A stretch of DNA of 20,710 nt, from IMG/VR virus record IMGVR_UViG_3300014325_000053, positions 1 to 20,710 of that record; one strand, written 5' to 3'. Numbering within the stretch: the stretch's first letter is position 1; every line of letters starts with the position of its first letter. The notes under the pieces were generated by a model. The model saw only the letters and a list, made by a program, of their open reading frames with translations. It was not told where the DNA came from and made no database searches. The position numbers were made by a program, and so were the translations under genes. This document shows positions 1-4,656 of the stretch, piece after piece. The stretch comes from a virus.

Positions 1-64
1 ACAAAGCGAGAAAGCTAAGTATAAGGTTGTAAAGCCTTACAGCCTCATGGTTCTTTCTCAGCCA

Positions 65-138
65 GGGGAAGTAGCTCAGTTGGTTAGAGCATCTGACTGT
101 TAATCAGAGGGTCGTTGGTTCAAGTCCACCCTTCCCCG
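65..138 (+). tRNA. tRNA-Asn (anticodon GTT)
   Basis: A full cloverleaf can be drawn. The acceptor arm GGGGAAG (65-71) pairs with CTTCCCC (131-137), with discriminator G138. The D stem is GCTC/GAGC. The anticodon stem TCTGA/TCAGA encloses the loop CTGTTAA, with GTT at 99-101. The T arm has the loop TTCAAGT and one T-C mismatch in its stem. No CCA is encoded, so the host would have to add it. It is the first of four tRNAs and reads AAC/AAT codons, which are frequent in the tail genes. Confidence 0.93.
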
Positions 139-147
139 CAAAATAAA

Positions 148-179
148 TTTGGAAATATCACTTTAACTTCTTAAATTTG
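148..179 (+). promoter_or_regulatory. Bacteroidota-type promoter before the small membrane protein
   Basis: A -33 box TTTG (148-151) is followed by a 20-base spacer and a -7 box TAAATTTG (172-179), matching the Bacteroidota consensus TTTG / TAnnTTTG. Bases 143-161 match 19302-19320 at 18 of 19 positions, and there the shared TTTG is also followed after 20 bases by a TAnnTTTG box. The predicted transcription start falls at or next to the ATG at 185, so the transcript could be leaderless. The box match and repeat are seen; activity is inferred. Confidence 0.5.
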
Positions 180-184
180 TGCTT

Positions 185-313
185 ATGTTTGTAGGAATAA
201 TTATAGGAGTAGCACTTGGTATTGCAGGTACCCTACTCTACCAGAAATATGTTCTTGGCTTCTTTAAGAAAGTTGGCAAGGCTGTCTCAGATGTTAAAAC
301 TGACTTAAAGTAA
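185..313 (+). CDS. 42-residue single-pass membrane protein
   Basis: This short ORF has an ATG at 185 and a TAA at 311-313. The product begins with about 18 hydrophobic, glycine-spaced residues (MFVGIIIGVALGIAGTLLY), followed by a short basic/amphipathic tail with Lys at many positions (YVLGFFKKVGKAVSDVKTD). This is one membrane helix with a cationic cytoplasmic tail. It lies between tRNA-Asn and a terminator and is preceded by a promoter-like sequence, which supports it as a real gene. There is no Shine-Dalgarno. The family is not recognised; a holin-like, membrane-anchoring or host-modifying role is possible, but nothing in the sequence decides between them. Confidence 0.55.
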   Translation: MFVGIIIGVALGIAGTLLYQKYVLGFFKKVGKAVSDVKTDLK

Positions 314-346
314 TGAAGTACAACACTTTATATTTCTCTCATCCAC

Positions 347-399
347 AACCCCAGCATCTTTTGCCAGGGTAGAAATCTTTTTTCCATTTTAAATGAGAT
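347..399 (+). promoter_or_regulatory. Attenuator-like leader segments upstream of the terminator
   Basis: Segment A, AACCCCAGC (347-355), and segment B, GCCAGGGT (363-370), can form a weak hairpin of 4+2 pairs around a 2x2 internal loop. Segment B is also perfectly complementary over 8 bases to ACCCTGGC (401-408), the 5' arm of the following terminator. Forming B:C would therefore disrupt the terminator. A resembles the terminator's 5' arm and can pair with its 3' arm at 8 of 9 positions. The pairings are seen; any switching is inference. A decayed duplicate of the terminator would look similar. Confidence 0.35.
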
Positions 400-432
400 A
401 ACCCTGGCTTTTCTAAGCCGGGGTTTTTGTTT
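400..432 (+). terminator. Intrinsic terminator before the tRNA-Pro/Gln/His group
   Basis: An 11-pair stem AACCCTGGCTT (400-410) / AAGCCGGGGTT (415-425), with one T-G wobble and the tetraloop TTCT, is followed by a T-rich run (424-432). It would end transcripts carrying tRNA-Asn and the small membrane gene just before tRNA-Pro at 433. The three downstream tRNAs would then need read-through or a promoter that I do not see. Confidence 0.85.
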
Positions 433-506
433 CTGGGAATAGCTCAGTCAGGTAGAGCTCTGGCTTTGGAGACCAGAGGCCGTAGGTTCAAATCCTACTT
501 CCCAGA
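433..506 (+). tRNA. tRNA-Pro (anticodon TGG)
   Basis: The acceptor CTGGGAA (433-439) pairs with TTCCCAG (499-505), with discriminator A506. The C1-G72 pair with A73 is characteristic of bacterial tRNA-Pro. D stem GCTC/GAGC; T arm GTAGG/CCTAC with loop TTCAAAT. The anticodon stem CTGGC/ACCAG encloses the 7-base loop TTTGGAG, with TGG at 467-469; its closing pair is a C-A mismatch. Shifting the loop by one base would give TTG but destroys the stem, so Pro is preferred. CCA is not encoded. Confidence 0.82.
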
Positions 507-511
507 CTTAA

Positions 512-584
512 AGCCTTGTAGTATAATTGGTTAGCACACGAGCCTTTGGAGCTCGTAGCCTTGGTTCAAGTCCAAGCAGGGCTT
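512..584 (+). tRNA. tRNA-Gln (anticodon TTG)
   Basis: The acceptor AGCCTTG (512-518) pairs with CAGGGCT (577-583), including one T-G pair. The anticodon stem CGAGC/GCTCG is perfect around the loop CTTTGGA, with TTG at 546-548. T arm CTTGG/CCAAG with loop TTCAAGT. The D stem is weak, with one mismatch and one wobble, and the discriminator is T rather than the usual G. It lies five bases after tRNA-Pro and reads CAA, which is abundant in the portal's Gln-rich tail. Confidence 0.8.
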
Positions 585-586
585 CC

Positions 587-658
587 GTAGTTTTAGCTCA
601 ATGGTAGAGCGCCTGACTGTGAATCAGGAGATGAGGGGTTCGAATCCCCCACTCTACT
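587..658 (+). tRNA. tRNA-His (anticodon GTG), slightly irregular
   Basis: D stem GCTC/GAGC; anticodon stem CCTGA/TCAGG around the loop CTGTGAA, with GTG at 619-621; T loop TTCGAAT. The acceptor GTAGTTT (587-593) against ACTCTAC (651-657) has two mismatches at its inner end, and the T stem has an A-C mismatch. The G-1:C73 identity pair of bacterial tRNA-His is not evident, since C586 precedes and T658 is the discriminator. Either it is divergent or it is decaying. The gap to tRNA-Gln is two bases. Confidence 0.75.
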
Positions 659-682
659 CAAAAGTTTTGAGCTCTATATGGC

Positions 683-708
683 ATTATGTCAGAAAATCTT
701 GACATAAT
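683..708 (+). promoter_or_regulatory. Operator-like perfect inverted repeat
   Basis: ATTATGTCA (683-691) and TGACATAAT (700-708) form a perfect 9-base inverted repeat with 8 bases between the arms. No T-run follows, so it is not a good terminator. It sits just upstream of the -33 box at 713-716, and a third copy of the half-site, TTATGTC, lies at 718-724 just downstream of that box. This fits a binding site for a dimeric regulator, possibly the winged-helix protein encoded next. The repeat is seen; the regulator is inferred. Confidence 0.5.
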
Positions 709-712
709 CTGC

Positions 713-742
713 TTTGTTATGTCTATTTATCCCTTATCTTTG
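713..742 (+). promoter_or_regulatory. Promoter of the packaging operon
   Basis: A -33 box TTTG (713-716), an 18-base spacer and a -7 box TATCTTTG (735-742) match the Bacteroidota consensus. The 15 bases TTATCTTTGTACTAC (734-748) recur exactly at 19330-19344 in the promoter of the metallophosphoesterase gene. The leader contains CAAACCAAT (748-756), also found in the leader of the scaffold gene. It would drive 765-7469. Confidence 0.7.
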
Positions 743-764
743 TACTACAAACCAATATAACTAG

Positions 765-1133
765 ATGGATGATTCTGTGAGCATACAGGTTCTCAGGAAG
801 AACTTTAAGGAACCTTTAGAGAAGGCACTAAGGTATTACTCCATCTTATCTGCTTGGAATAAATTAGGGCTCTCTACTAGGCAAATCCAGCTTTTGGCAT
901 ACACTGCTATTAGAGGGACCATTTCCTCCCTCTCCTCCAAAGCAGAATTCTCCAAGTTGTTTAGTAGCTCTCCTGCTACTATAAACAATATGATCTCAGA
1001 ACTTTCCCAATCAGGTTTATTGGTTAAAGTTAATGGGAAATATAAAGTAAATAAGGCTATAGACCTGGACTTTTCTAAGGATTTAGTAGTAGCATTCAAA
1101 CTGTTTGCAGCTGAGGGAGGGAAAAATGAGTAA
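765..1133 (+). CDS. Winged helix-turn-helix DNA-binding protein
   Basis: This 122-residue protein looks all-helical with a winged-helix core. Residues about 34-90 read as helix (STRQIQLLAYTAI), helix, a recognition-type helix (SPATINNMISELSQSGLL), and then a short beta wing (VKVNGKYKVN). It is the first gene after the promoter and operator-like repeat. It overlaps the next gene by 8 bases. An autoregulator of the operon, or a DNA-binding packaging component (small-terminase subunits often carry HTH domains), both fit. I recognise the fold type but not the family. The ATG at 765 has no Shine-Dalgarno, as is common in Bacteroidota, and lies 8 bases after the conserved CAAACCAAT leader element. 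Confidence 0.75.
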   Translation: MDDSVSIQVLRKNFKEPLEKALRYYSILSAWNKLGLSTRQIQLLAYTAIRGTISSLSSKAEFSKLFSSSPATINNMISELSQSGLLVKVNGKYKVNKAIDLDFSKDLVVAFKLFAAEGGKNE

Positions 1134-1587
1134 CCAGATCAAACCAGAAAAGCTTTCCTTACATGAGTTCCTTATCAGGAAAGCTGCTGTAAAGGTTATG
1201 CAATCTGAGAGCATTGTTGAAAAGGTTATCTCTCATCAACACCAATCTATTAACAAAGCTTTTAAAACTACATACGAAATCGAGATAACAGGCTTCTGCA
1301 AATTCAAGTTTTCTCAATCGAAGCTAAGGAAAAATATAAGGATCAATGAGAGTATTAGGGACAAGCTTCTTCTAAAGCTTCAAAATGATCCTGACAATCA
1401 AGAACTTGCAGAGAAGCTTCGTATCAATACTGAGATATTAACAAATCTTTACCCCCATTTAAAAGAAATATCAGATGAAAATAGACTTCAAGGGTCTACT
1501 GGAGGGAATGAGGAACAGCTTGTTTCCACCAGCGGAGATCAAGGAGAAAATAGAGGAGACAGCAGCAGCCAGGATAGCAATTTGTAA
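1126..1587 (+). CDS. Small conserved phage protein, possibly HU/IHF-like in its N-terminal half
   Basis: The start is taken at ATG 1126, giving 153 residues, because GAGGGAGG lies just upstream; an in-frame TTG at 1105 is less likely. Residues 10-50 look helical, and a strand-like segment EITGFCKFKFS (53-63) recalls the 'GFG-F' strand of HU/IHF proteins, which crAss-like phages are known to encode. The similarity is weak and the usual conserved arginines/proline arm is not obvious. Residues 75-118 look like a second helical region. The last ~33 residues are Gly/Ser/Gln/Asp-rich and lie in the stretch that also codes for the start of the next gene. It overlaps the upstream gene by 8 bases and the downstream gene by 113. 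Confidence 0.7.
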   Translation: MSNQIKPEKLSLHEFLIRKAAVKVMQSESIVEKVISHQHQSINKAFKTTYEIEITGFCKFKFSQSKLRKNIRINESIRDKLLLKLQNDPDNQELAEKLRINTEILTNLYPHLKEISDENRLQGSTGGNEEQLVSTSGDQGENRGDSSSQDSNL

Positions 1588-2628: not shown

Positions 2629-4656
2629 ATGAGTGTAACTACATCTTCAGAGTTCTTCATTAACATGAAGAGTATTCCTACGCCCGACTCTAGGGAGTAT
2701 GAGCCCTTCTTTGCTAATGAGTTAGACAAAATCGAGAATGGAGTTACTATTAACGGAGTATTTGTAGACCCTTGGTTATATTGGCATCTAAATCACTGGC
2801 ATATAAACAAGGATGTTGAACTTCCAAATGGTCAGGTAAAGCGCAGGTTTGGCCCACCAGATGCCAGAGATAACGAATGGGAATTTGCTGAAGTACGAGC
2901 TGAGGCAAAGCTTCAGAAGAAAGGACTTGTGATGGTAGGGATTAGGCGTTTTGCTAAGTCCGAGATCGAAGCCTCAATTATAAGTCGATCAGCTACTATT
3001 AATCAGGGTTCTGAGAATGTTATCTCAGGTGGTAATGATAAGGATATCAAACTAATAACTGATAAGTGTGACAGGGGATTAAATTCCCTCCATGAATACT
3101 TTAAGTTTCAAAGAGTAGAGGATAACTGGAAGACCCAAGTAACACTAGGTATAAAGAAAAAATCAGGTGAGAGATTACCATTCTCTTACATTCTCGTAAG
3201 AAATTATGACAACGGTATTAATACAGAGGCTGCAGCAGGTATCACAGCTATGGAATTTATCATTGATGAAATTGGTAAATTCCCCTTTCTTAGGTGCCTT
3301 GAAGCTGCTATTCCCTCTTTCACTTCTCCTTATGGTTGGAGATGTTCACCTCTTCTTGTAGGAACAGGTGGTTCTTTTGAAAATGGAGCAGATGCAGAGA
3401 AAGTATTCTTAGACCCTGAAGGACATAACATGCTGGGTCTCAAATGGAGGGACGAACCTAAAGTCTTTGGGTTCTTTGCTGGCCACACCTTTAGGATGGA
3501 GGCAAAGAAGGAAACTACAATGGGAGATTTCATTCAAACTAGGAATGGGATTCTCCTCCCCAAAGACTCAGAACTGTTCTCTGTCCCTCTTTTACAATCC
3601 GATCCTGAAGTAGCTGAAGAATTCACTAACAAGGAGAGAGAAAGAGCTAAGAAAGCAAACGACTCACAAGCCTATCTAAAGGAGGTAATGTACTTCCCTA
3701 AGAATCCGTCGGAATGTTTCTTAACTCTAGGCTCTAATTTCTATAGTGTAGAATCTGCAAGACAGCAGAAGAGTAGAGTCCTCCAAATGGGAAGGATATA
3801 TACTCCTGTTTTCCTTGAACCTGGAGTTGATAATATCATACATAAGATCAGCGATAAGGCTCCTGTGATGAATTTCCCAGCTAAGGCTATGGATGATAAA
3901 GATGCACCCATAACTATCTGGGAATTTCCCATAGAGGAGAAACCACCATTTGGTTTATATGTTGCTGGAGTTGACCCTTATAAGCAAGACCAAGCTAAAT
4001 ACTCTGATTCTTTAGGAGCTGTATATATCTTTAAGAGAATGCATGATATAAAATCTGACCTCTATCAAGATATGTTTGTAGCTTCCTACGTGGCTAGGCC
4101 TAAATCTATAGATAAGTGGAATGAACAAGCTCGACTCCTTGTAAAGTATTATAATGCAAGAACCTTATGCGAAAATGAAGATATGGGCTTTATTAACTAT
4201 ATGATTTACAAGGGAGATGGGCATCTTTTAGAGGATCAACCAGGATGGCTTAAGGAAATCGTTCCTAATACTGAGGTTAATAGGATCAAGGGAATACATC
4301 GCTCTGCCTATAGAATTAGGATGTACCTTCATACAGTATTGAAGCAATATTTAGATGAGAAGATAGGCTCTCGAAGGAATGAGGAAGGAGATATCTTGGG
4401 AGATATCTTAGGAGTCTCAAAAGTTTTAGATGCTATGCTATTGGAGGAAGTCATTAAATTTCAGGATGATTTGAACTGTGATCGTGAAGTAGCTGCTTCA
4501 TTAGCTATAGCTCTAGCAAGGCATTTGGACCCCCAGCTTAAAGTAGCTTCTGTTGAGATGGACCCAAGAATGAAAGCCTACTTTGATTCCAAACCAAATA
4601 CCTCATTATTCAATGGGAGTATCTCACCTTTTGGGAAAAGACATAAATTGTTCTAA
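2629..4656 (+). CDS. terL: Terminase large subunit (packaging ATPase/nuclease)
   Basis: The 675-residue protein has the two-domain plan of phage large terminases, which pump DNA into the prohead and cut the concatemer. The ATPase domain shows a deviant Walker A, R106-R-F-A-K110-S111, with Ala in place of the usual Gly, and a Walker B FIIDE (210-214) with D213 and catalytic E214. The nuclease (RNase H fold) shows VAGVDP with D449, an acidic cluster LCENED (E515/E517), and D618 followed by a helix (VAASLAIALA), matching the usual three metal-binding acids. It starts one base after the preceding stop and ends directly at the portal ATG. Length and motifs resemble crAss-like TerL. Confidence 0.96.
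   Translation: MSVTTSSEFFINMKSIPTPDSREYEPFFANELDKIENGVTINGVFVDPWLYWHLNHWHINKDVELPNGQVKRRFGPPDARDNEWEFAEVRAEAKLQKKGLVMVGIRRFAKSEIEASIISRSATINQGSENVISGGNDKDIKLITDKCDRGLNSLHEYFKFQRVEDNWKTQVTLGIKKKSGERLPFSYILVRNYDNGINTEAAAGITAMEFIIDEIGKFPFLRCLEAAIPSFTSPYGWRCSPLLVGTGGSFENGADAEKVFLDPEGHNMLGLKWRDEPKVFGFFAGHTFRMEAKKETTMGDFIQTRNGILLPKDSELFSVPLLQSDPEVAEEFTNKERERAKKANDSQAYLKEVMYFPKNPSECFLTLGSNFYSVESARQQKSRVLQMGRIYTPVFLEPGVDNIIHKISDKAPVMNFPAKAMDDKDAPITIWEFPIEEKPPFGLYVAGVDPYKQDQAKYSDSLGAVYIFKRMHDIKSDLYQDMFVASYVARPKSIDKWNEQARLLVKYYNARTLCENEDMGFINYMIYKGDGHLLEDQPGWLKEIVPNTEVNRIKGIHRSAYRIRMYLHTVLKQYLDEKIGSRRNEEGDILGDILGVSKVLDAMLLEEVIKFQDDLNCDREVAASLAIALARHLDPQLKVASVEMDPRMKAYFDSKPNTSLFNGSISPFGKRHKLF

Follow-up and report, generated by a model that had tools for sequence, protein, structure and literature searches.

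A putative leader-peptide attenuator ahead of a phage tRNA operon, and codon-matched leaders ahead of tRNA operons in other large phages

Introduction

The enterobacterial trp, his, leu, thr, ilv, and phe leaders are ribosome-mediated attenuators of amino-acid biosynthesis operons, and in pheST-type attenuators leader-peptide control acts on aminoacyl-tRNA synthetase operons. The reason phages carry tRNA genes has been debated for decades. In the T-box riboswitches (RF00230), a choice between terminator and antiterminator is likewise tied to tRNA supply. Phage tRNAs have been described as a counter-defence against tRNA-cutting immunity (PMC10264068, PMC11555353), which explains why a phage would need tRNAs on demand; a keyword search of these two papers gave nothing bearing on the regulation of phage tRNA genes.

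Here we analyze a tRNA locus in the window, that is, the whole 20,710-nucleotide stretch of IMG/VR virus record IMGVR_UViG_3300014325_000053. Judged from its sequence, the locus very probably carries a ribosome-mediated (leader-peptide) transcription attenuator ahead of a phage tRNA operon. Like the enterobacterial attenuators, it combines a short leader ORF rich in product-related codons, 1:2, 2:3, and 3:4 pairings, an intrinsic terminator ahead of the structural genes, and a stop codon near segment 2. It differs from them in that the genes under control would be viral tRNA genes and not biosynthesis or synthetase genes, that a single phage leader spells out the amino acids for a whole group of tRNAs, down to the codons of isoacceptors, and that the product would itself be the sensed molecule, giving direct feedback. 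The pheST-type systems share leader-peptide attenuation of a gene for tRNA charging, whereas in the phage the tRNA gene itself would be regulated; in contrast to the T-box, the window has no T-box match and sensing would proceed through translation of an ORF. Leader-peptide attenuation is known; what appears to be new is a leader that lists the anticodons encoded in a viral tRNA operon, and the open-access literature searched contained no earlier report of one.

Results and discussion

Layout of the tRNA locus

The terminase, portal, and capsid genes of the window were assigned to PHROG families. The named phages nearest to it by terminase are Leptolyngbya phage Lbo-JY46 (44%) and Cellulophaga phages phi4:1 and phi17:2 (32%), with crAss-like phages as more distant matches. 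These relatives, together with Bacteroidota-type promoter-like sites, point to a host among the Bacteroidota. The same TTTG...TAnnTTTG layout precedes leaders in L004, L164, and Lbo-JY46, and a TAnnTTTG box is present in phi4:1. The tRNAs are the sole significant Rfam matches in positions 1-1500 of the window. An earlier sequence-only reading of this DNA had coupled the expression of tRNA-Pro, -Gln, and -His to that of tRNA-Asn; this coupling is not supported, as tRNA-Asn lies upstream of the first promoter-like site (Table 1). On the 3' side of tRNA-His, just upstream of the second promoter-like site, a perfect 9-bp inverted repeat (ATTATGTCA/TGACATAAT) occupies positions 683-708, and the adjoining sequence GCTCTATATRGCATTA recurs in the related contig L002 at about 4070.

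Table 1. Features of the window tRNA locus, with leaders found ahead of tRNA genes elsewhere
Feature	Position	Strand	Sequence	Basis or remark
tRNA-Asn	65-139			upstream of promoter-like site 148-179
Bacteroidota-type promoter-like site	148-179	+	TTTG (148-151), TAAATTTG (172-179)	read by eye
Small membrane protein gene	185-313	+	MFVGIIIGVALGIAGTLLYQKYVLGFFKKVGKAVSDVKTDLK	ORF list; upstream of leader ORF
Leader peptide ORF	313-372	+	MKYNTLYFSHPQPQHLLPG	translation; ATG overlaps TAA of membrane gene (TAATG)
Putative regulatory codons	340-357	+	CAT CCA CAA CCC CAG CAT	His Pro Gln Pro Gln His
Segment A	347-355	+	AACCCCAGC	pairs with B; inside regulatory codons; sequence and fold
Segment B	363-370	+	GCCAGGGT	pairs with A or C; last base is first base of TAG 370-372
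Segment C	400-410	+	AACCCTGGCTT	terminator 5' arm; antiterminator partner of B
Segment D	415-425	+	AAGCCGGGGTT	terminator 3' arm; T-rich tail 424-432; terminator scan
tRNA-Pro (TGG)	433-507	+		ARAGORN; Rfam tRNA 64.4 bits
tRNA-Gln (TTG)	512-586	+		ARAGORN; Rfam tRNA 58.4 bits
tRNA-His (GTG)	587-659	+		ARAGORN; Rfam tRNA 57.9 bits
Second Bacteroidota-type promoter-like site	713-742		TTTG (713), TATCTTTG (735-742)	before gene 765; read by eye
Leader			MKTTLSLSLSLSLSLSG	ahead of Leu/Ser tRNAs
Leader			MYATTKTTKTTKTTKKR	ahead of Thr/Lys tRNAs
Leader			MKTSLTNLVLVLCLLV	ahead of Cys/Val/Leu tRNAs
Leader			MKTTLSLSLSLSLSLSGWTNRAM	ahead of Leu Ser Ser Ser Leu Leu
Leader			MYATTKTTKTTKTTKKRVASGG	ahead of Thr Thr Thr Lys Lys
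Leader			MKKRVEIAIAVVAVAVVADGQG	ahead of Val Ala; Ala Val Ile further on
Leader			MNVVRDMHIIRRDWSHRASD	ahead of Arg x4 Trp Ile Ile Val Asp Asp Met
Leader			MRRHSIHTISISTSSSDQ	ahead of Ser x3 His Thr Thr; Ser Ile Ile further on
Leader, 136-kb phage			FANIFDFAFEFAAEAD	ahead of Phe Glu Asp Ala
Leader, same 136-kb phage			TTTTYTGKQYPQGKQG	ahead of Pro Gln Tyr Thr Gly Gly Lys
Leader, same 136-kb phage			NLVLVLCLLVADWVGFAC	ahead of Cys Val Leu
Leader, phi4:1			MKIQRLHLQELEQPIISGG	ahead of Pro Glu Gln His Leu Leu Arg and further tRNAs
Leader, Bacillus phage G			MMKCSWFEFDTDFTDVFYCEYTFYSLYTF...	ahead of Cys Asp, Phe Tyr Glu Thr, Ser

A leader ORF whose codons match the tRNAs behind it

A 19-codon leader ORF overlaps segments A and B and places its stop codon at the end of B. 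Its codons read ATG AAG TAC AAC ACT TTA TAT TTC TCT CAT CCA CAA CCC CAG CAT CTT TTG CCA GGG TAG, and the six-codon row His-Pro-Gln-Pro-Gln-His within it names exactly the amino acids of the genes behind the terminator, tRNA-Pro, -Gln, and -His. Of the 18 leader residues, 7 are His, Pro, or Gln, whereas these three account for a fraction of 0.11 of the proteome of the contig (binomial P 0.0018). Dinucleotide shuffling of the leader ORF gave a run of at least six such residues in 18 of 20,000 cases; at least seven, with no run required, are not rare (1,275 of 20,000), and because of this the match in the window on its own is suggestive, short of conclusive, and the evidence from the class decides. 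The window leader does not lie beside its own promoter, unlike most members of that class, which counts against the attenuator. Its translation is probably coupled to that of the membrane gene, given the TAATG overlap.

Alternative pairings in the leader RNA

The segments A, B, C, and D that the sequence-only reading had delimited are present in the sequence (Table 1), as are the eight perfect B:C pairs and the 11-pair C:D terminator it described. The terminator stem contains 6 GC pairs, closes a loop of 4, and is followed by the T-rich tail; the stem ends 8 nt before tRNA-Pro, and the tail ends immediately before that gene. When the upstream stretch was shuffled with its dinucleotides kept, 56 of 5,000 shuffles did as well as the 8/8 pairs of B:C (P about 0.011), and the region 340-440 folds better than 200/200 shuffles (z -3.9). 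Computed energies are -9.2 kcal/mol for A:B, which that reading had called weak, -16.8 kcal/mol for B:C with its inner hairpin, and -17.7 kcal/mol for C:D. The attenuator geometry put forward in that reading gains support from the leader ORF lying over A and B, from its cognate codons, and from its stop at the end of B; the RNA half of the attenuator had been recognized, while the decisive leader ORF and the promoter-like site at 148-179 had been missed.

The position of a translating ribosome alters these pairings in a fold model. If it occupies 340-349, B:C is complete, with all 8 pairs, by the time D is synthesized; with the ribosome at 352 there are 6 such pairs, at 355 there are 2, and at the stop codon there are 0. 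In the geometry of this model, a ribosome at the stop codon covers B (segment 2) and one on the regulatory codons leaves B free. Two results count against the switch. In the full-length window RNA, C:D is thermodynamically preferred even with B free, so that switching must be kinetic, as in classical attenuators; and in the model with no ribosome, B:C is the favored structure for as long as D has yet to be transcribed. That B:C lasts long enough has to be assumed, because C:D gains a slight edge in stability when D is finished.

We propose the following sequence of events. Transcription would probably start near 180 and run through the membrane gene into the leader ORF, whose translation is likely coupled to that of the membrane gene at TAATG. 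A shortage of charged tRNA for Pro, Gln, or His would stall the ribosome at 340-357 and keep A covered; the emerging B could then pair with C as an antiterminator, C:D would not form in time, and polymerase would proceed into tRNA-Pro, -Gln, and -His. If these tRNAs were plentiful, the ribosome would reach the stop codon at 370-372 and cover B, C:D would form, and transcription would terminate before the tRNAs. Because the phage tRNAs read the same codons as the leader contains, such a circuit would constitute negative feedback, supplying tRNA only when the combined host and phage pool runs short, for example once an anticodon nuclease has cleaved a host tRNA.

The locus in related phages

Of the relatives that have this region, L002 (68% terminase) is the closest; it contains a small membrane-like ORF (about 3899-3985), a C:D-type terminator, and then the next gene. 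Single-protein searches for relatives of the window returned only L002 as a close relative with the upstream region, together with the distant L530, which lacks tRNAs; no close relative with the same operon was found, which counts against the attenuator. The sequence-only reading had named as a refutation related phages that keep C:D with no compensatory changes preserving B:C, a test to be applied with care: L002 has its terminator without segment B, yet also without a leader ORF and without tRNAs behind it, and Lbo-JY46 keeps B:C. The joint absence of leader and tRNAs in L002 favors the attenuator.

At the syntenic place in Lbo-JY46, 1.8 kb upstream of the terminase and with a homologue of window gene 1475 in between, tRNA-Pro, -Thr, -Phe, -Gln, and -His stand behind a terminator. 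The leader there, MKITRQHTQFWFPTGTGLGML, has extra Thr and Phe codons that accompany the extra Thr and Phe tRNAs. Its terminator is completely different from that of the window, and B:C is still present (CTGGGCT:AGCCCAG). Because the tRNAs of the two phages are only 56-70% identical, common descent of the operons is not established. In L004 (44% terminase), a different genome site carries three tRNA-Leu genes and a tRNA-Ser behind a terminator, with the leader MKQFTSYSLYSLSLQNSDRG.

Lbo-JY46 (L572; PP438436) has a cyanobacterium as its recorded host; its leaders, its terminase, and its promoters of the TTTG...TAnnTTTG layout indicate a phage of Bacteroidota, and the actual host may be a companion bacterium. 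A further group in L572, comprising two tRNA-Cys genes, Arg, and Asn, lies behind the leader MINSIDIRNIDIVCAEGVNKCSCGLSFMCDGGCGCN; its terminator is 87 nt before the first detected tRNA, and a tRNA-like stretch uncalled by ARAGORN lies between.

The terminator in L002, at a syntenic place with no tRNAs behind it, may predate the tRNAs and bears on a simpler account, in which C:D is an ordinary intrinsic terminator that ends the membrane-gene transcript, A:B derives from its duplication and later decay, and leaky read-through yields the tRNAs, which simply happen to lie downstream. The likeness of A to C (7/9) and of B to D (7/8) also fits a duplicate; the pairing of A with B, B with C, and C with D nevertheless forces A to resemble C. 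This account, which the sequence-only reading had named as the simpler alternative, does not predict a leader-tRNA match: it leaves unexplained why an HPQPQH row over A precedes genes for just these three tRNAs, why the stop falls where B ends, and why the match recurs in dozens of unrelated phage operons described below. We regard it as very improbable.

A survey of phage tRNA operons

IMG/VR was scanned for T-runs shortly ahead of tRNA genes, and the tRNA regions of named phages and of large phages found were added; the presence of a terminator in the survey operons was required by construction. A blind rule then took as leader an ORF ending near a segment whose complementarity to the terminator 5' arm exceeded that of > 90% of shuffles, so that ORFs were chosen by B:C pairing and stop position with the tRNAs ignored. 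B:C complementarity at P <=0.05 was present in 12/23 discovery loci, 11/44 fresh loci, and 0/11 bacterial tRNA loci. The blind leaders matched their own tRNAs with a Stouffer value of 6.98, compared with 0.26 (sd 1.17) on random re-pairing (0/20,000), and the other two frames of the same DNA show nothing. For the fresh set alone, 45 of 20,000 re-pairings were as good.

Set size and gap were widened after the first results, and the two tests that follow are less strictly blind. With the tRNA set widened to all within 3.5 kb, the Stouffer value is 11.3 against 0.8 (sd 1.2), with 0/20,000 re-pairings as good and other-frame controls at about 1.0-1.1. A maximum-z test over ORFs in 66 non-redundant phage operons lies 12 SD above re-pairing (0/10,000), and z >=2 is found in 32 of the 66 where 5.9 are expected; the bacterial control of this test, which is small (n = 8), gives no signal. 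An earlier rule based on the longest ATG ORF, which in the window took the membrane gene, performed more weakly (discovery 4/20,000, replication 1,243/20,000). About half of the terminator-preceded phage tRNA clusters have no leader-tRNA match, which counts against the attenuator reading. The terminators of the matching phage operons are unrelated in sequence, and where one genome has several leaders, each fits its own operon. On these sequence comparisons, the window is one member of a widespread phage class, many of whose members are unrelated large phages.

The confinement of the signal to one reading frame, with little or none in the other frames of the same DNA, also argues against a T-box-like element that binds tRNA directly and requires no translated leader. 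Such an element would account for a leader/antiterminator/terminator architecture upstream of tRNA-related genes; no Rfam match to the T-box was obtained at E up to 10 in window 1-1500, and we consider it exceedingly improbable. The sequence-only reading had named both a tRNA-controlled and a translation-controlled switch: the leader-tRNA match across many phages favors the translation branch, and the tRNA-binding branch gains no support.

Codon-anticodon fit

In the leaders with z >=2, encoded anticodons can read 319 of 384 cognate codons, compared with 294.6 (sd 6.0) expected from the codon usage of the contigs; for 151 of the 163 anticodons encoded, the leader of the same operon contains a codon that fits. 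The repetitive leaders L514 and L263 alternate synonymous codons such that each isoacceptor is covered; the Leu-Ser repeat of L514, TTG TCA TTA AGT CTA AGT TTG TCG CTA TCC TTA TCA, covers all six encoded isoacceptors.

Such alternation is not what low-complexity DNA would give. It is conceivable that the window leader acts in trans or has an unrelated function, its residues matching as a codon 'reservoir' or a low-complexity by-product, and short His/Pro/Gln stretches do come easily from C/A-rich DNA, as the 1,275 shuffles illustrate. The match is nonetheless lost when pairing is shuffled or the frame changed, and B:C and a terminator accompany the ORF, which together make this explanation most improbable.

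Another possibility is that the leader senses amino-acid starvation through uncharged tRNA and not the loss of particular tRNAs, with an identical RNA switch. Aminoacylation is what classical leader peptides respond to, and stalling would follow the same logic. Against amino-acid sensing, the genes under control are tRNA genes and not biosynthesis genes, and an anticodon fit beyond codon usage, together with the 151 covered anticodons, points to individual tRNA species; we judge it unlikely. We consider it probable that large phages of several host groups (Bacteroidota-type, Bacillus, and others with sigma-70-type promoters) independently use codon-matched leaders as sensors that switch on individual tRNA operons upon loss of the matching tRNA, an inducible, isoacceptor-specific replacement able to answer host tRNA-cutting defences or tRNA decay. 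If so, the leader sequence would tell which tRNAs a phage expects to lose, phage tRNA expression would be conditional and not constant, and 'tRNA replacement under attack' would become directly testable in phages with named hosts (Bacillus phage G, Cellulophaga phage phi4:1). Leader-peptide attenuation would be extended to tRNA genes and to viruses, and the codon-tRNA signature could serve as a simple aid to annotating overlooked short ORFs such as phage G gp86.

Individual members of the class

Among sequenced phages, instances occur in Bacillus phage G, Cellulophaga phage phi4:1, and Leptolyngbya phage Lbo-JY46. The three leaders of a 136-kb phage each fit their own operon (Table 1), and a 482-kb phage, which encodes 62 tRNAs, carries four or more leaders. 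No leader of this kind was found in T4, T5, KVP40, phiCbK, RaK2, or crAss001, nor in Atu_ph07, Vibrio phage Morian, Synechococcus phage Sf-CH11, Alishewanella phage Slicko01, or csAssE-Sib; when four leaders from uncultured phages were searched at the DNA level, no close relative in a named phage emerged.

The phage G leader (L592 582-716; 58381-58515) is annotated as gp86, a hypothetical protein without function. A convincing B:C pairing was not found there (best 6 bp), which counts against the attenuator reading; because of this, the RNA switch of phage G may be built differently. In L153, L155, L166, and L224, a TATAAT box, itself preceded by TTGACA, stands only a few bases ahead of the leader ATG. 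In many members, including these four and phi4:1, the start codon coincides with the expected transcription start, which suggests that their leaders may be translated in a leaderless manner.

A possible weak member is found in L112 (1454-1528, reverse strand; G001), where a single tRNA-Ile(TAT) stands behind a terminator-like hairpin and the ORF MAKQQYIGSCKYLISQIN, which has two ATA codons and one ATT. Finally, ARAGORN reports Pyl-labelled tRNAs (anticodon CTA, reading TAG) in the L589 3930 region (G052) and at L615 1441 (G057), both from large tRNA-rich phages; these are possibly suppressors linked to recoded TAG.
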